From Nitrospira sp. (GTDB lineage: Bacteria > Nitrospirota > Nitrospiria > Nitrospirales > Nitrospiraceae): a stretch of DNA of 35,751 nt. The notes under the pieces are model-generated. The model was given only the letters and a program-made list of their open reading frames with translations. It was not told the origin of the DNA and searched no databases. The DNA is taken from contig JACOEL010000029.1 in NCBI GenBank assembly GCA_024998625.1, positions 1 through 35,751 of the forward strand. The letters run 5' to 3'. The translations under genes and the position numbers were made by a program. Numbering within the stretch: the stretch's first letter is position 1; each line of letters opens with the position of its first letter. Positions 27,732 through 35,594 of this stretch are shown one piece after another.

Positions 27732-28991
27732 ATGGCGACCAAACGAACGCTGACTCAAGTCGAACAAGCCTTGCGCGAAAAGACGCGCGAAGTGGATGCC
27801 CTCCATCGCATCAGCGAGTCGATCAGCAACACACTTGATTTGGAGGCCGTGCTCCGGCATATCGTGGATATGGTCGTGGAAGTGACTAAGGCCGACGCCT
27901 GCTTGCTGTATCTGTTGTCGGATAACAGAGACGAGCTGATCCTGCGGGCCTCCAAGAATCCGCATCCGAAGCTGATCGGGCGGATCACCATCGGCATGGG
28001 CGAAGGCATCACCGGATGGGTCGCGCGGGAGCGGACGCGCGTCGTCATTCCCAACAGCGCCAGCGATGACCCGCGGTTTAAGTTCTTTCACAACCTTCCC
28101 GAAGACCGCTACCAGGCGTTCGTCTCGGTGCCGATTACGACCAAACAGGAGGTCGTCGGTGTTATTAATGTACAGCACAAACGGTCGCGCCGATACCGGC
28201 CCGACGAACTAGCGTTGCTCTCGACCATCGCCACGCAGGTCGGAGGGGCCATTGAGAACGCCCGCCTGTACGATCAAATGACGCGGAAGGCGCTGCAACT
28301 GGATACGCTATCCCAGGTCTCGGAGACCGTGTCGTCGAATCGATTGATCGAGGACGTGCTGCAGTTGATTGTGACGATGACGGCTCAAATGATGGGATCG
28401 AAGATTTGCTCCATCATTCTTTTGGATCAGCCGACCGGTGAACTTCGGATCGCCGCCACGCAAAGTCTGAGCGAACAGTACCGGCGCAAGCCCAACGTGA
28501 AGATCGGGCAAAGCATCAGTGGGCGTGTCGTCCAGGATCGCCGGCCGATCATTGTGCCGGATGTCACCAAAGAAGGCACCTATATGTATCCGGACATGGC
28601 TGCGAAGGAGGGCCTTTGTTCGCTCCTGTGCGTGCCGATGCTGGTGCGTGAAAAGGCCATCGGCGTAATCAATACGTATACGTCCAAGCCGCATACCTTC
28701 ACGGCGGAGGATGTCAAACTGATGCAGGCGATTGCCAATCAGGCCGCGATTTCCATTGAGCACACCACGTTGCTTGAGAAATCGTTTGAAATGCAGGAAG
28801 CCTTGCAGGTCCGCAAGTTGCTCGATCGGGCTAAGGGATATCTCATGCGGTCGAAGCGGCTGTCGGAGGAAGACGCGTTCAAATTGATTCAACGGCAGAG
28901 CATGGATCTTCGCAAATCCATGCGAGAGATCGCAGAAGCCATTCTCCTAGCCGGAGAAATCGAACAGCGGGCCGATAAGGACAGGAGTTGA
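27732..28991 (+). CDS. GAF-GAF-ANTAR protein, predicted RNA-binding transcription antiterminator
   Basis: The 419-residue protein has a short coiled coil (EQALREKTREVDALHRISESI) and GAF domain 1 at about residues 25-165 (MGEGITGWVARERTRVVIPN; FVSVPITTKQEVVGVINVQH). GAF domain 2 covers about 190-340 (IGQSISGRVVQDRRPIIVPDV; SLLCVPMLVREKAIGVINTY). The C-terminal ANTAR three-helix domain lies at about 352-408 (VRKLLDRAKGYLMRSKRLSEEDAF and SMREIAEAILLAGEI). ANTAR domains of NasR, AmiR and EutV bind paired hexaloop hairpins in nascent RNA and prevent terminator formation. Two such leaders lie 2-4 kb downstream. There is no response-regulator receiver domain, so the signal is presumably a GAF ligand, which I cannot identify. 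Confidence 0.93.
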   Translation: MATKRTLTQVEQALREKTREVDALHRISESISNTLDLEAVLRHIVDMVVEVTKADACLLYLLSDNRDELILRASKNPHPKLIGRITIGMGEGITGWVARERTRVVIPNSASDDPRFKFFHNLPEDRYQAFVSVPITTKQEVVGVINVQHKRSRRYRPDELALLSTIATQVGGAIENARLYDQMTRKALQLDTLSQVSETVSSNRLIEDVLQLIVTMTAQMMGSKICSIILLDQPTGELRIAATQSLSEQYRRKPNVKIGQSISGRVVQDRRPIIVPDVTKEGTYMYPDMAAKEGLCSLLCVPMLVREKAIGVINTYTSKPHTFTAEDVKLMQAIANQAAISIEHTTLLEKSFEMQEALQVRKLLDRAKGYLMRSKRLSEEDAFKLIQRQSMDLRKSMREIAEAILLAGEIEQRADKDRS

Positions 28992-29696: not shown

Positions 29697-30611
29697 CTAG
29701 GGTGTTGCGGTCGGCTTGCGGGGTGCCGCTTTCGGTTTGGCCTTGGAGGCAGCGGTGTCTTTCTCAGCTAACTGCCGCCGTGCCGATTCCAACTCTGCCT
29801 TGAGCTTCTGGAGTTCCTCCGCCTGTTTGACCACCACATCCTTCGCGGATTGGAGTTCCTGTTGCAAGCGGCTCTGTTCGGCAGTGGGTGAAGTTTGTAT
29901 CGGTGCTGCCTCGGCAGTGGTGTTGTGGTCGGCCGTGACAGGAGATGGCGCAGGAAGTTGACTCAACGCCTCAAGGGAGACGGCGATACGCGGCTGTTCC
30001 GGCTCGACGATCATCCAGGGGTGAGGAACATCGGCTCGCACAAGGGCTTGTGGGGGGGTGAAGGAGAGCAGGAGTGTCGCCGGTCTGGCCTGACCATCCG
30101 CAGCCGCCGATCGATAATGAGACAGGGTCACTCGAAGCGTGGTCTTATGCACGTAGAGCGTGCCTTGGGTTTTGAGACCGTCATCCTGCATGGTGAAGCG
30201 AACCCGTTGATCAGGCTGAGCCTGTGCGAGTGCGGTGACGATGAGCGGGGACAGAAACTCCACCTCCTCGTGAGAGAACAGCGGATAACTCTCCTGCGCC
30301 ATGCTGCTTCCCGGCCGATCGAGTCCTGAAACGGACAGGCCGGTGAGTAGGCGTCCCATCAGCGAGGCCGTCAGATGGGCAGGATGCGACGCCTGAAAAG
30401 TCTGCGGCGTGCCGTATTTGGCGGTGGTCCCACGGCTGGTCTGGCGTTCAAGAGCGACGGTTCCCAGGGGGCCCTGTCCGACGGGAGTCAGGTTTGTTCC
30501 GAGGCTGCAGGCGCAGAGGAGGAGACAGGGAACAAGCGCCAGCTGCCAGGCGAGCCGGAAACCACTGAGGCGTGATTGTGTCGGGGTAGGATGGCGAATC
30601 ATGAGCCGCAT
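29697..30611 (-). CDS. Putative lipoprotein with C-terminal coiled coil, unknown function
   Basis: Read on the minus strand from ATG at 30611 (304 residues) or 30602. The N-terminus has a basic region and a lipobox-like LLLCAC, so membrane anchoring at the second Cys is likely. The middle (about 100-220) contains FSHEEVEFLSPLIVTALAQAQPDQRVRF and WMIVEPEQPRIAVS. The C-terminus is a coiled coil (QQELQSAKDVVVKQAEELQKL) ending in a Lys/Ala/Pro-rich tail. I do not recognise the family. It is the only convincing minus-strand gene in the window. Confidence 0.75.
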   Translation of the reverse strand: MRLMIRHPTPTQSRLSGFRLAWQLALVPCLLLCACSLGTNLTPVGQGPLGTVALERQTSRGTTAKYGTPQTFQASHPAHLTASLMGRLLTGLSVSGLDRPGSSMAQESYPLFSHEEVEFLSPLIVTALAQAQPDQRVRFTMQDDGLKTQGTLYVHKTTLRVTLSHYRSAAADGQARPATLLLSFTPPQALVRADVPHPWMIVEPEQPRIAVSLEALSQLPAPSPVTADHNTTAEAAPIQTSPTAEQSRLQQELQSAKDVVVKQAEELQKLKAELESARRQLAEKDTAASKAKPKAAPRKPTATP

Positions 30612-30619
30612 GGCGGCCG

Positions 30620-30630
30620 ATTGTACCACA
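30620..30630 (-). promoter_or_regulatory. Possible extended -10 for the minus-strand lipoprotein gene
   Basis: On the minus strand TGTGGTACAAT (30630 to 30620) contains TGG plus TACAAT, an extended -10. Initiation about 7 nt downstream would fall two or three bases before the ATG at 30611, giving a near-leaderless mRNA, in agreement with the missing SD. No good -35 was seen. The evidence is a short motif only. Confidence 0.3.
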
Positions 30631-30681
30631 GGCTGACCGCGGAACCGCCCGGTTTCCCCTGGAAAAGTGCGGTTCAAGTGA

Positions 30682-30711
30682 TTGACAGCCTGCTTAGGCC
30701 GATGGTATACA
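30682..30711 (+). promoter_or_regulatory. Sigma70 promoter of the nadE leader
   Basis: TTGACA (30682-30687) is a perfect -35. TATACA (30706-30711) lies 18 bp away and is preceded by TGG, forming an extended -10. Transcription would start near 30718, so the mRNA has a leader of about 240 nt before the nadE ATG, beginning just before the first ANTAR-type hairpin. Confidence 0.7.
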
Positions 30712-30725
30712 CACGGGATCATTTC

Positions 30726-30795
30726 CGGGGACAACGGCGTCTCCGACGAGCAATTCGTTCCTAACGATACATTGGAACCAGGACAACGACGTCCT
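30726..30795 (+). promoter_or_regulatory. ANTAR-target leader 1: paired hexaloop hairpins upstream of nadE
   Basis: Hairpin P1 is CGGGGAC-AACGGC-GTCTCCG (30726-30745; seven pairs, one G-U). Hairpin P2 is AGGAC-AACGAC-GTCCT (30780-30795; five pairs). Both loops are six bases with A1 and G4, the documented requirement for ANTAR proteins. The linker can form its own stem, GTTCC (30757-30761) with GGAAC (30774-30778). The 3' arm of P2 (30791-30795) is also part of the 5' arm of the terminator, so P2 and the terminator exclude each other. This is the architecture known for NasR and EutV targets. Direct reading shows the motif; protein binding is inferred. Confidence 0.85.
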
Positions 30796-30831
30796 CCGAT
30801 CCACCGAGGTGGGTCTGAGGACGTTTTTTTT
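30789..30831 (+). terminator. Intrinsic terminator/attenuator in the nadE leader
   Basis: Bases 30790-30796 (CGTCCTC) pair with 30817-30823 (GAGGACG). After one mismatch, seven further pairs including one G-U (30798-30804 with 30809-30815) close on a CGAG loop. Eight Ts follow (30824-30831). It lies about 127 nt before the nadE start and after the promoter, so it must act as an attenuator unless relieved. Formation of P2 removes its outer stem. Confidence 0.88.
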
Positions 30832-30837
30832 ATCAGT

Positions 30838-30860
30838 CTGCTGATAACTTCCATCAGCAG
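30838..30860 (+). promoter_or_regulatory. Second hairpin after the nadE leader terminator
   Basis: CTGCTGAT (30838-30845) pairs with ATCAGCAG (30853-30860) around a seven-base loop. An alternative stem, TATCAG (30831-30836) with CTGATA (30841-30846), competes with it. The element would be the first structure in read-through RNA and may protect its 5' side or help unwind the terminator. Function is unknown. Confidence 0.4.
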
Positions 30861-30957
30861 GCAAGGATCGCCGACAGCCCAGGATCGTGAAGTTCCGATG
30901 ACTCGTGTTCAGGCTGACAGCTGATTGCTGAGCGCCGACGGCTTACAGGCTTTAGAT

Positions 30958-32727
30958 ATGCGTCCCCTCAGAATTGCCATGGCCCAGATCAATCCGACCG
31001 TCGGGGACATTGTCGGCAACACGCGCTTGATCCAGACGTGGATTAAGGAAGCGCGACGGGCCAAGGCCGACCTCGTGGCCTTCCCGGAATTGGCCATCAC
31101 CGGCTATCCGCCGGAGGATCTGTTGTTCAAGCCCCGCTTCATCGCGGACACGCATCGTGCCTTGAAGGCGGTCGCGGCGGAAGCGCGCGGCTTGGTCGTG
31201 GTCGTCGGGTATGTCGGGCAGGGGGCGACGGCTGTTTCGGCGTCGGAGGCTTCTTCGTTCCCGCTGCCTGGTCGGCATGAATTGTACAACGAGGCAGCGG
31301 TGCTGTCCGATCGACGGATTTTGGCCACCTACCGGAAACGGCATTTGCCGAACTACGGCGTGTTCGATGAGAGCCGGTACTTTCACCCCGGTTCTCGTCT
31401 GCCGTTGCTGGTCCTGGACGGCGTGACGATCGGCGTCAATATTTGCGAAGACATCTGGTTCTCGGACGGGCCCACGCGGCTGCAGGCCGCAGCCGGCGCC
31501 GAGGTCATCGTCAATATCAACGCATCCCCGTTCCATGTCGGGAAGGGGCGGATGCGCGAACAGGTGCTGGCGACCAGGGCCCGTGAAAATCGCCTGATCG
31601 TGACCTACACCAACACGGTCGGCGGGCAGGATGAACTGGTGTTCGACGGCTGCAGCATGATTGTGGACCAGGCGGGCGAGATCGTGGGGCGGGGGAAGGC
31701 GTTTGAGCAGGATCTCATCGTTGCGGATCTCGATGTCGCGGCCGTGGGGCGGGCGCGACTGGCCCAGGGACGCAAGAAACCCCTGCCGCCGCGTGTGGCG
31801 GCCCTCATTGATCGGGTCGATGTACGCCTGCCTGCGAGAAAGTTGCAGTCAGTCGTGGTGCCGGATCTAGAGCCTCCGCTGGGGCGTCTCGACGAGGCCT
31901 ATCGTGCCTTGGTCCTCGGGGTGCAGGACTATGTCCGCAAGAACGGGTTCAAGCGCGTCGTCATCGGATTGAGCGGCGGGGTGGACTCGGCCATCACCGC
32001 GGTCATCGCGGTAGACGCCTTGGGTGCTGAGAATGTGCTCGGGGTGTTCATGCCCTCGCCCTATACGTCCAGAGCTAGCCGCGAAGATGTCGCCGATCTG
32101 GCCAGCCGGCTGCACATTCAGGTCGATACCCTGTCTATTACCGCGACGTTCAAGAGTTACCTGCGCGCCCTCAGCCGATCCTTCAAGGGACGGCGTCCCG
32201 ACACGACCGAAGAGAATTTGCAGGCTCGGATCAGGGGCAATCTGCTGATGGCCTATTCGAATAAGTTCGGGCATCTGGTGCTGACCACCGGAAATAAAAG
32301 CGAAATGAGCGTCGGGTACGCAACGCTGTACGGCGATATGGCAGGAGGGTTTGCGGTGATCAAGGATGTGCCGAAGACCATGGTCTACGAGCTGTCGCAC
32401 ATGCGCAATCAGGTCGGGCCGGTTCCGGTGATCCCGAAACGTGTTCTGGAGCGGGCTCCCACCGCGGAGTTACGACCCGATCAAAAAGACGAAGACAGTT
32501 TGCCCCCCTACGCTATTCTCGATCCGGTTCTCAAGGCCTACGTCGAGGAGGACCGCGCGTTGGAAGACATTGCAGCGATGGGGTTCGATCGGAAGACGGT
32601 CGCGCGGGTGATCGCGCTGGTGGACCGGAGTGAATACAAGCGGCGGCAGGCCCCGCTCGGAATCAAGATTACGCATCGCGCATTCGGGAAGGATCGACGG
32701 ATGCCGATCACCAATGGGTACCGGTAG
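30958..32727 (+). CDS. nadE: Glutamine-dependent NAD synthetase
   Basis: Makes NAD from deamido-NAD, ATP and glutamine-derived ammonia. The N-terminal nitrilase-type amidase domain has the triad E44 (FPELAITGYPPEDLL), K127 (YRKRHLPNYGVFDE) and C163 (NICEDIW). The C-terminal synthetase domain has the PP-loop LSGGVDS near residue 340 and TTGNKSEMSVGYATLYGDMAGGF. The 589-residue length is typical. ATG 30958 has a weak SD; an in-frame TTG at 30925 is less likely. The NAD synthetase of Azospirillum has been reported to be controlled by PII, and here glnB lies in the same gene run. Expression is probably gated by the upstream ANTAR-type leader. Confidence 0.96.
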   Translation: MRPLRIAMAQINPTVGDIVGNTRLIQTWIKEARRAKADLVAFPELAITGYPPEDLLFKPRFIADTHRALKAVAAEARGLVVVVGYVGQGATAVSASEASSFPLPGRHELYNEAAVLSDRRILATYRKRHLPNYGVFDESRYFHPGSRLPLLVLDGVTIGVNICEDIWFSDGPTRLQAAAGAEVIVNINASPFHVGKGRMREQVLATRARENRLIVTYTNTVGGQDELVFDGCSMIVDQAGEIVGRGKAFEQDLIVADLDVAAVGRARLAQGRKKPLPPRVAALIDRVDVRLPARKLQSVVVPDLEPPLGRLDEAYRALVLGVQDYVRKNGFKRVVIGLSGGVDSAITAVIAVDALGAENVLGVFMPSPYTSRASREDVADLASRLHIQVDTLSITATFKSYLRALSRSFKGRRPDTTEENLQARIRGNLLMAYSNKFGHLVLTTGNKSEMSVGYATLYGDMAGGFAVIKDVPKTMVYELSHMRNQVGPVPVIPKRVLERAPTAELRPDQKDEDSLPPYAILDPVLKAYVEEDRALEDIAAMGFDRKTVARVIALVDRSEYKRRQAPLGIKITHRAFGKDRRMPITNGYR

Positions 32728-32742
32728 TACGGGCCGCAACAG

Positions 32743-32813
32743 GACCGACAACGACGTCGGTCAGCAACACTGGCAATGGCGCCAGAGAGACGGGGCTTAC
32801 AGACTGTTCTGTA
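32743..32813 (+). promoter_or_regulatory. ANTAR-target leader 2: three consecutive hexaloop hairpins before the barrel-amtB genes
   Basis: Hairpin A is GACCGAC-AACGAC-GTCGGTC (32743-32762; seven perfect pairs). Hairpin B is CTGGC-AATGGC-GCCAG (32770-32785; five pairs). Hairpin C is TACAG-ACTGTT-CTGTA (32798-32813; five pairs). All three loops are six bases with A1 and G4. Loop and closing base pairs of A are identical to hairpin P2 of the nadE leader; the 12-mer GACAACGACGTC occurs in both. Hairpin C overlaps the following terminator-like hairpin. No promoter was found between the nadE stop and hairpin A, so this may be an internal checkpoint in a nadE read-through transcript. Confidence 0.75.
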
Positions 32814-33816: not shown

Positions 33817-35148
33817 ATGGTGAAGAGATCGGCACAGCGGAAAACGGTCGTCGTGAGCGTCGCCGGGGTGTTGATTCTGCTGGCGGAGTCATGGGGGACT
33901 CAGGTCTGGGCGCAGAATACGCCGCTGAAGGTCGATACCGGTGATACGGCATGGGTCCTGGTGTCCTCGGCTTTTGTGCTGGCGATGCTCATGCCGGGAT
34001 TGGCGCTGTTTTACGGGGGCCTGGTACGGACCAAGAACGTACTCGGCACGATCATGCAAAGTGTCATGATCCTGAGCGTGGTGAGTCTGCTGTGGATCCT
34101 GTTCGGATACAGCCTGGCGTTCGGGCCGGATAGGGGCGGGGTGATCGGGGGCTTGGAATGGGTCGGGCTCAGTGGGGTGGGCAGTGAGCCGCACCCGGTC
34201 TATGGACCGACGATTCCCCACCAGGCCTTCATGTTGTTCCAATTGATGTTCGCCGCCATCGCACCGGCGTTGATCACCGGCGCGTTTGCCGAGCGGAAGC
34301 GGTTTACGGCGGTCGTCTTGTTTGCGGCCTTGTGGTCGGTGTTCGTCTATATCCCCCTGGCGCACTGGATCTGGGGCGGTGGCTGGCTGGCCAAGCTGGG
34401 GGCGTTGGATTTTGCAGGCGGTGCGGTGATCCATATCAGTTCCGGGGCGGCGGCCCTGGTCTGCGCCATCGTGCTGGGCAAGCGGCGAGGCTATGGGACC
34501 GACTATATGGCGCCCCACAATCTGCCGATGACGTTACTCGGAACCGGATTCCTCTGGTTCGGCTGGTTTGGGTTCAATGGAGGCAGCGCGCTCGGCGCCA
34601 ACGGGATCGCCGTCTCCGCGATTATCGCGACCCATGCAGCGGCGGCGATGGGGGCTATTGCCTGGTGCAGTGCCGAATGGGCGCATCGCGGCAAACCCAC
34701 GGTGCTCGGAGTCGCCAGCGGCGCGGTGGCAGGATTGGCGACCGTGACCCCGGCCGCCGGCTATATCGCACCCATGTCGGCCATTGCCATCGGTTTGGTC
34801 GCCGGCATAATGTGTTATGCCGCGATTGTCTGGAAGGGGCGATTCGGCTATGATGACTCGCTTGACGTCGTGGGAATCCATGGAGTCGGGGGGGTGATCG
34901 GAATTCTGGCTACGGGACTGTTTGCCAGCAAGGTCGTCAATCCGGGCGGCGCCGATGGATTGTTCTTCGGTAACCCCGGCCTCTTCGGCATCCAACTCCT
35001 AGTCGTGGCTGTCACGACGATCTTCACGATGGTCGGCACGTTCGTCATCCTCAAATTGGTGGATTCCATAACGGGGCTACGGGTGTCGTCTGAGGAAGAA
35101 GCGACCGGTTTGGACTTGAGCCAACATAACGAGCGGGCGTATTCGTGA
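33817..35148 (+). CDS. amtB: Ammonium transporter AmtB
   Basis: A trimeric inner-membrane ammonium channel. The 443-residue product has an N-terminal signal-like helix (VVVSVAGVLILLAESWGTQVWA) and then about eleven membrane segments. Pore residues are intact: D198 (GALDFAGGAVIH), the twin histidines H206 and H355 (VVGIHGVGG), and WFGWFGFNGGSALG for the periplasmic gate. It is Amt type rather than Rh type. AAGGAGG (33808-33814) is only 2 nt before ATG 33817 and 5 nt before the in-frame GTG 33820, so either could be used. It is followed by glnB, the normal partner that blocks the channel. Confidence 0.97.
   Translation: MVKRSAQRKTVVVSVAGVLILLAESWGTQVWAQNTPLKVDTGDTAWVLVSSAFVLAMLMPGLALFYGGLVRTKNVLGTIMQSVMILSVVSLLWILFGYSLAFGPDRGGVIGGLEWVGLSGVGSEPHPVYGPTIPHQAFMLFQLMFAAIAPALITGAFAERKRFTAVVLFAALWSVFVYIPLAHWIWGGGWLAKLGALDFAGGAVIHISSGAAALVCAIVLGKRRGYGTDYMAPHNLPMTLLGTGFLWFGWFGFNGGSALGANGIAVSAIIATHAAAAMGAIAWCSAEWAHRGKPTVLGVASGAVAGLATVTPAAGYIAPMSAIAIGLVAGIMCYAAIVWKGRFGYDDSLDVVGIHGVGGVIGILATGLFASKVVNPGGADGLFFGNPGLFGIQLLVVAVTTIFTMVGTFVILKLVDSITGLRVSSEEEATGLDLSQHNERAYS

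Positions 35149-35168: not shown

Positions 35169-35594
<426 letters not shown>

Follow-up and report, generated by a model that had tools for sequence, protein, structure and literature searches.

The nadE gene of the Nitrospira sp. genome GCA_024998625.1 is preceded by an RNA leader that very probably works as an ANTAR attenuator, and that appears to belong to a nitrogen regulon in Nitrospira and its relatives within the Nitrospirota. On the comparative sequence evidence described below, we put the probability of this reading at roughly 0.88. The best reading of the sequences is that the mechanism is a known one and the regulon is new, with NAD synthetase as an unexpected target. Members of Nitrospira rank among the major nitrite oxidisers, and complete oxidation of ammonia is carried out by some of them. 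The system offers a candidate nitrogen regulator for these bacteria, together with a list of likely targets.

Anatomy of the nadE leader

The window analysed here is the whole stretch of 35,751 nt, contig JACOEL010000029.1 positions 1 to 35,751, forward strand. Within it, nadE (30958-32727, + strand) encodes a glutamine-dependent NAD+ synthetase of 589 residues (NF010588, 742.4 bits against a cut-off of 479). Of the six TIGR00552 matches in the genome one passes the cut-off, which makes nadE its sole NAD synthetase by that measure. The leader sits between the start of nadE at 30958 and an oppositely oriented ORF (29697-30611), for which profile searches gave no family match.

The elements of the leader all lie on the + strand. 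A sigma-70-like promoter at 30682-30711 consists of TTGACA (30682-30687), a spacer of 18 nt and TATACA (30706-30711). It is followed by a hexaloop hairpin P1 (30726-30745, seven pairs, loop AACGGC), a linker of 34 nt (30746-30779) which is predicted to form a five-pair hairpin of its own (30757-30761 with 30774-30778), and a second hexaloop hairpin P2 (30780-30795, five pairs, loop AACGAC), which is the proposed antiterminator. The intrinsic terminator occupies 30788-30831, with a stem that spans 30788-30825 in the fold, a G+C core at 30790-30823 with an inner arm, and eight T at 30824-30831. Read from the sequence, the 3' arm of P2 is contained in the 5' arm of the terminator. The leader has two features of the dual-hexaloop class, namely loops whose first base is A and whose fourth is G (A1/G4), and a terminator that overlaps P2. 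A reading made earlier from the sequence alone (the sequence-only reading) had described the A1/G4 hexaloops and the shared arm before nadE, and had placed promoter, P1, P2 and terminator with an error of one or two bases at most; the hairpins and the arm reuse are seen directly, and a composite scan agrees.

In that scan, which covered both strands of the window, the composite of P1, P2 and terminator was found once, and it was found in none of 120 dinucleotide-shuffled strands. Pairs of P1 and P2, with or without a terminator, occurred 62 times in the same shuffled strands, so that the hairpin pairs alone prove little. The full leader folds as P1 plus terminator, at -44.1 kcal/mol (z -3.37, with none of 200 shuffles as stable), and RNA cut at 30796 folds as P1 plus P2 (z -1.62, with 10 of 200 shuffles as stable).

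A generic scan of positions 30600-31000 reported neither a promoter nor a terminator. Its rules call for a -10 box ending in T and a loop of 3-8, which exclude both the promoter and the terminator of this leader, and the blank is therefore not taken as absence. The promoter call rests instead on conservation: TTGACAG is identical, and the TAT of the -10 box is present, in all 26 aligned leaders of the genus. Rfam gave no family at its gathering score in the window, and the leader searched at E up to 5 gave one meaningless match (15.6 bits against a gathering score of 126).

Conservation and covariation

A nadE of this kind was obtained from 27 of the 29 genomes of the same genus, one of them partial. 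The P2 core and T tract precede it at 26 of these 27 loci, the exception being L057, which also has the most divergent full-length nadE. The leaders of the genus were located by a P2 pattern, so P1 was not part of the selection; the alignment has the promoter, and P1 with its A1/G4 loop, in 26/26.

An alignment of 18 nadE leaders, drawn from several lineages, provides further information on pairing. In P1, five of the seven pairs have changes on both sides. P1 and the terminator together have 96.8% of cells paired and a covariation score of 0.249, against 0.154 when shuffled and at most 0.080 when slid; for P1 and P2 the values are 94.4% and 0.254, and for the terminator stem alone 98.4% of cells are paired. 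The P2 loop has G4 in all 18 rows and A1 in 17, in rows that were mostly chosen by a scan demanding A1/G4 hairpins. Checks less affected by this selection are those on P1 in the genus alignment, on the 45 nadE loci described below and on the genome counts across the phylum. No pair of P2 changes on both sides, and the outermost one is broken in 6 of the 18 rows, so the pairing of P2 is without covariation support in this alignment. The expectation from the single sequence, of covarying stems around fixed A1/G4 loops in homologous leaders, is borne out for P1, while the stem of P2 has no such support in this alignment. The overlap of P2 with the terminator, which had also been put forward as a mark of homologous leaders, is present in the aligned leaders. 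A covariance-model search had been suggested as a check, with a model built from known ANTAR RNAs. The model used here was built from the present leaders rather than from published ANTAR RNAs, and the outcome was favourable.

Further loci were fetched by means of the ANTAR protein described below. There were 80 of these, and 45 of them include nadE together with 350 nt or more of sequence before it. The element precedes nadE at 34 of the 45 (29 at a model E up to 0.01 and five on weaker criteria), and all 34 have the T tract; 12 of the 34 served to build the model. At the other 11 loci, which are ANTAR-positive, nadE has no leader. At three of these (L094, L096 and L098) nadE comes directly after the ANTAR gene. 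A matching leader is found further downstream in L094 and L098, and it precedes a BBP2 porin in L098 and in L080.

The GAF-GAF-ANTAR protein

The sequence-only reading had merely assumed that an ANTAR protein exists. One is in fact encoded 1.7 kb upstream of the leader, adjoining aroB, at 27732-28991 (+ strand), and it is the single match to Pfam ANTAR (PF03861, 67.3 bits against a cut-off of 27.3) in the whole genome (4.42 Mb in 37 contigs). The protein has 419 residues, with two GAF stretches in addition to the ANTAR domain, and is here proposed as the antiterminator. Its Pfam matches are GAF and ANTAR only. No NIT domain was matched, and for this reason it is not filed as a NasR orthologue.

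The residues that contact RNA in the structure of EutV are described in PMC8934654. They were mapped by hand onto the window protein using an ungapped alignment in which the EutV chain is numbered two higher than in the paper. The residues making hydrogen bonds to G4 are identical (R142, K149 and E160 of EutV correspond to R361, K368 and E379), and the stacking aromatic Y164 is replaced by F383. Further contacts are kept at K143 (K362), M172 (M391) and R175 (R394), and four are changed, these being K147 to R366, R168 to Q387, N173 to D392 and R177 to S396. In a set of 21 sequences, made up of the window protein and 20 relatives at 70-94% identity, all mapped positions are invariant except R366 and D392. 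The RNA-contact residues of EutV are largely kept, and the protein is predicted to bind RNA.

The closest curated families are PtsP for the first GAF domain, and NifA for the second GAF domain and the C-terminal part, in both cases far below the cut-off. The best Protein Data Bank chain is an unnamed domain (3e0y), followed by PtsP GAF domains. PtsP GAF domains sense glutamine. The likeness to PtsP and NifA, below cut-off as it is, may point to a nitrogen metabolite as the ligand.

Joint presence and absence of leader and protein

In a survey of 245 genomes of the phylum, each at least 80% complete, an ANTAR match was found in 97 (96 of them over the cut-off), and the RNA was matched with E no higher than 0.01 in 54. 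RNA and protein are both present in 53 genomes, RNA alone in one, protein alone in 44 and neither in 147, which gives a Fisher p of about 1.6e-25 when relatedness is ignored. The window genome has both, as do 53/54 of the RNA-positive genomes. The RNA search across the phylum used stricter filters, so that RNA-negative genomes, including the 44 of 97 that are ANTAR-positive, are not proven negative; and the RNA matches at E 0.003-0.009 (G049, G063, G088, G095 and G179) are counted as positive here and may be chance.

The nadE locus was inspected in 26 genomes of the family, comprising 20 named genomes from the 148 with no ANTAR match, and six with a match. All 20 ANTAR-less genomes have aroB within 1.5 kb upstream of nadE. 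None of the 20 has a hexaloop composite at the locus, and none shows six consecutive T within 350 nt upstream of nadE. They are all of one genus, and therefore do not represent 20 independent losses. Among the six ANTAR-positive genomes, the composite lies before nadE in two and elsewhere at the locus in three. The sixth, G193, has the protein and shows neither composite nor model match at nadE. In G121 the model also places a leader before nadE.

The sole genome with RNA alone (G165, loci L221 and L222), which is one of these 20 ANTAR-less genomes, has, between aroB and nadE, a fragment that matches residues 1-58 of the ANTAR protein. Its nadE is leaderless, and one orphan leader with a terminator is found elsewhere; no ORF of 100 codons starts within 1.3 kb of this leader on its strand. 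It looks like a genome that is mid-way through loss of the system.

The comparison thus favours ANTAR control as originally read from one sequence, in that leader and protein occur together and go missing together. Relatives that lack the system are natural controls. The same comparison bears on the alternative that the attenuator is real but responds to a different factor than an ANTAR protein (for example an uncharged tRNA or a small RNA, a metabolite, or some other protein that binds RNA), with the likeness of P1 and P2 to ANTAR targets being coincidental. The composite does not by itself identify a ligand, and the Rfam result, with no family at the gathering score, leaves room for such a factor. 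However, it would have to account for A1/G4 loops in P1 in 26 of 26 leaders of the genus, for a P1 stem that covaries while its loop stays fixed, and for the tight association with the ANTAR protein in both presence and absence. We consider it improbable.

Other leaders of the same type

The covariance model contains 18 leaders, 13 from before nadE and five from before other genes, the latter being two porin leaders (L080 and L098), a similar leader (L091), that of a reductase (L072) and that of a 744-residue protein (L112). Matches of the model to porin leaders are partly by construction, because porin leaders are among its rows. The leaders before the nitrite transporter-cyanase genes and before amt are not among its rows.

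Searched at E up to 1, the genome of the window itself gave the nadE leader at 62.4 bits. It also gave a pair of leaders in front of a gene for a formate/nitrite transporter of the NirC type, which is followed by cyanase; the first of the pair scored 31.7 bits (E 1.9e-4) and the other 19.7 bits (E 0.17). A further leader, at 32.4 bits (E 1.2e-4), stands before a second ammonium transporter gene. The nitrite transporter-cyanase and ammonium transporter genes lie at a contig end with glnD and glnA beside them, a location which suggests that this contig end adjoins the PII gene of the window. In G001 the corresponding leaders are 9 kb from nadE. A match at 16.6 bits (E 0.97) is inside an ORF with a phosphofructokinase domain and was rejected as chance.

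A possible second dual-hexaloop element in the window (32741-32785, + strand) was matched at 16.5 bits, E 0.97. It lies upstream of a DUF6733-amtB-PII gene series, and has a 7-bp P1 and a 5-bp P2 with loops AACGAC and AATGGC, joined by a linker of 7 nt. No U-tract terminator is found at this element. Both hairpins are kept in six aligned close relatives, over a region that is 85% identical overall, and equivalents are found in L064, L073, L074, L076 and L077. The element scores no better than the match rejected as chance, and the case for it lies in its position and in the retention of both hairpins among close relatives; it may work at the level of translation or be a chance resemblance. Through it the ammonium transporter gene amtB (33817-35148, + strand) and the PII signal protein gene (35256-35594, + strand), both identified from family matches, are possible members of the regulon.

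All 29 genomes of the genus contain at least one model match at E up to 0.05. Five genomes of the genus are single contigs, and 21 of the 22 matches in them are within 47 kb of the ANTAR gene, which is a crude count of matches that are not independent. A match at 3.03 Mb in G021 is considered to be chance, having no T tract after it and being far from the ANTAR gene.

The genes downstream of leaders include nadE, FNT/nirC, cynS, amt, BBP2 porins and a PAS histidine kinase, a 306-residue protein with a start that is lipoprotein-like by eye, and a pyridine-nucleotide reductase carrying a BFD-like domain, for which NirB-like is our own label. Proteins of 440-490 residues encoded beside leaders (for example in L066, L082, L083, L084 and L092) gave no Pfam match. 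This distribution suggests that nadE is one target among nitrogen genes, predicted to be controlled through RNA, which goes beyond the original proposal for nadE alone. NtrC was also sought: the genome gave 112 matches, all of them short of the NCBIfam cut-off, and only one of 14 control genomes passes the same search. Since the controls mostly fail this cut-off, the result lends the absence of NtrC weak support.

Two variations on the arrangement were seen. Tandem attenuators, with two units of P1, P2 and terminator, precede FNT/nirC or the 306-residue protein (L148:11132-11310 (-), L223:6518-6696, L229:4103-4281 (-), L226:17299-17454 and L225:6115-6273 (-)), and in the second unit the P1 loop can, by eye, start with G rather than A. 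A leader of the same type is also followed by a protein of around 745 residues in L103 (12796), L090 (5440) and L088 (10409). The protein of L103 is a Cache-PAS histidine kinase, which hints at further sensory input to the regulon.

Proposed mechanism

We hypothesise that by default RNA polymerase would start some bases before P1, at a site inferred from the promoter, and would make P1 and then the terminator. The terminator would consume the 3' arm of P2, and transcription would stop at the U tract before nadE. The GAF-GAF-ANTAR protein, when active and probably as a dimer, would bind the hexaloops of P1 and P2 through their G4 bases. P2 once bound would persist, so that the terminator could not form and transcription would enter nadE. 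The same protein would act on the leaders of the ammonium transporters and of the operon for the NirC-type nitrite transporter and cyanase, and in relatives on those of the porins, which would make nadE a member of a nitrogen-acquisition regulon. The GAF domains would sense a signal of nitrogen status. Binding, antitermination and the signal are what we infer here, as is the direction of control, which is taken from the structure of the leader. Given that the only NAD synthetase of the genome lies behind the terminator, either termination must be incomplete or a second promoter must exist. Neither basal read-through nor a second nadE promoter was found, in a promoter scan that misses the conserved promoter too.

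The direction of control could in principle be reversed, the ANTAR protein lowering nadE by acting in the opposite sense or at translation, or the element could feed a short decoy RNA that titrates the protein. Decoy RNAs that sequester EutV are known, as described in PMC7602753, and the element at 32741-32785, having no U tract, could act at translation. In the nadE leader, however, P2 and terminator are mutually exclusive, as in antitermination, and nadE follows directly. We regard this version as quite improbable. Least credible, with only a very slight chance of being correct, is that the terminator is a constitutive insulator against upstream transcription, with hexaloop hairpins that regulate nothing: the neighbouring upstream ORF on the other strand could call for insulation, and hairpin pairs do arise by chance in shuffled strands, but the terminator is fed by a conserved promoter upstream of it, P1 covaries, and the same arrangement stands before unrelated genes and is absent where there is no ANTAR protein.

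Relief of termination by the ANTAR protein thus stays the preferred reading, and a broader proposal can be built on it. The GAF-GAF-ANTAR protein might be the principal nitrogen regulator in Nitrospira and its relatives, working at the level of RNA and replacing NtrC. A sole, presumably essential NAD synthetase would then be under the same nitrogen-status control as the use of ammonium, nitrite and cyanate, the long linkers would form a spacer hairpin, and the system would be without precedent, as far as the search extends, both as ANTAR control of NAD synthesis and as a GAF-ANTAR regulon. This broader proposal is tentative, and we think the odds somewhat against its holding in full.

Relation to known systems

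In Geobacter, nitrogen genes are under the control of ANTAR proteins (GnfR). The one paper found on gnfR names it as a nitrogen fixation response regulator and nothing more. Among the closest known leaders are those of the EutV/eut system of Enterococcus faecalis which, as described in PMC3369931 and PMC8934654, likewise have two A1/G4 hexaloop hairpins with P2 overlapping the terminator, and several leaders per genome. The differences are that EutV is a phosphorylated REC-ANTAR protein, whereas the Nitrospira regulator is a one-component GAF-GAF-ANTAR protein, and that the eut leaders have linkers of 5-12 nt and serve ethanolamine use, whereas the Nitrospira linkers are mostly 21-36 nt and the predicted targets are NAD synthetase and nitrogen uptake. 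In its one-component sensor-ANTAR design, its dual-hairpin leader and its connection with nitrogen metabolism, the system resembles NasR/nasF of Klebsiella oxytoca as presented in PMC7496416. NasR uses a NIT domain to sense nitrate; the Nitrospira protein has GAF domains and other target genes.

Nitrogen regulons under ANTAR control have been predicted in Desulfotomaculum and Pelobacter (Ramesh et al., 2012, PMC3369931), with several leaders found before genes for PII and for ammonium and nitrite transport, among others. The organisms are different from ours, and nadE, NAD synthetase and Nitrospira are absent from the main text of that paper; its supplementary hit tables might still list Nitrospira. 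According to the same text, no ANTAR protein with a PAS or GAF domain had been characterised as of 2012, and the one-component ANTAR class as set out in the 2020 paper (PMC7496416) consists of PAL and NasR only. Among the matches listed in a search of the open-licence literature, supplementary tables excluded, none joins ANTAR to nadE or to regulation in Nitrospira.

A tie between NAD synthesis and nitrogen status is also known from the control of NadE-Gln by PII, and PMC7196632 describes PII-nadE gene islands that include Nitrospirae. That control is a protein-protein contact acting on the enzyme, whereas the leader is predicted to attenuate transcription of nadE. The present system would place NAD synthesis in a nitrogen regulon by way of RNA, at a level of control separate from the contact between PII and NadE. 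The GAF-ANTAR protein and its leader form a pair suited to study in vitro.

The linker and the region before nadE

The P1-P2 linker is 21-36 nt long in 37 of 41 non-redundant cases, the window's own having 34 nt; the rest range from 13 nt upward, apart from one doubtful case of 3 nt. In the eut leaders, lengthening the linker to 14 nt drastically reduced induction (PMC3369931), and with EutV an extension by 20 nt stopped antitermination in vitro (PMC8934654), according to the relevant parts of those papers. Linkers of 2-25 nt are described as accepted in actinobacterial ANTAR RNAs (PMC8164766), a range that the linker of the window also exceeds, and the published definition of the dual-hexaloop motif permits a variable linker. 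If the EutV rule is strict here, it counts against the ANTAR model unless a linker hairpin forms.

Such a hairpin would bring P1 and P2 closer together, and the predictions are suggestive of this. When linkers of at least 27 nt were folded, 3 of 13 folded better than their mononucleotide shuffles at p ≤0.05 (range 0.015-0.82). The linker of the window, folded alone, gave p 0.11 and is not significantly structured. Because the linkers are mutually related and few of them fold significantly, the spacer hairpin is treated as a lead only.

Downstream, between the U tract and the start of nadE, an 8-bp inverted repeat (CTGCTGAT/ATCAGCAG) can be seen by eye at 30838-30860.
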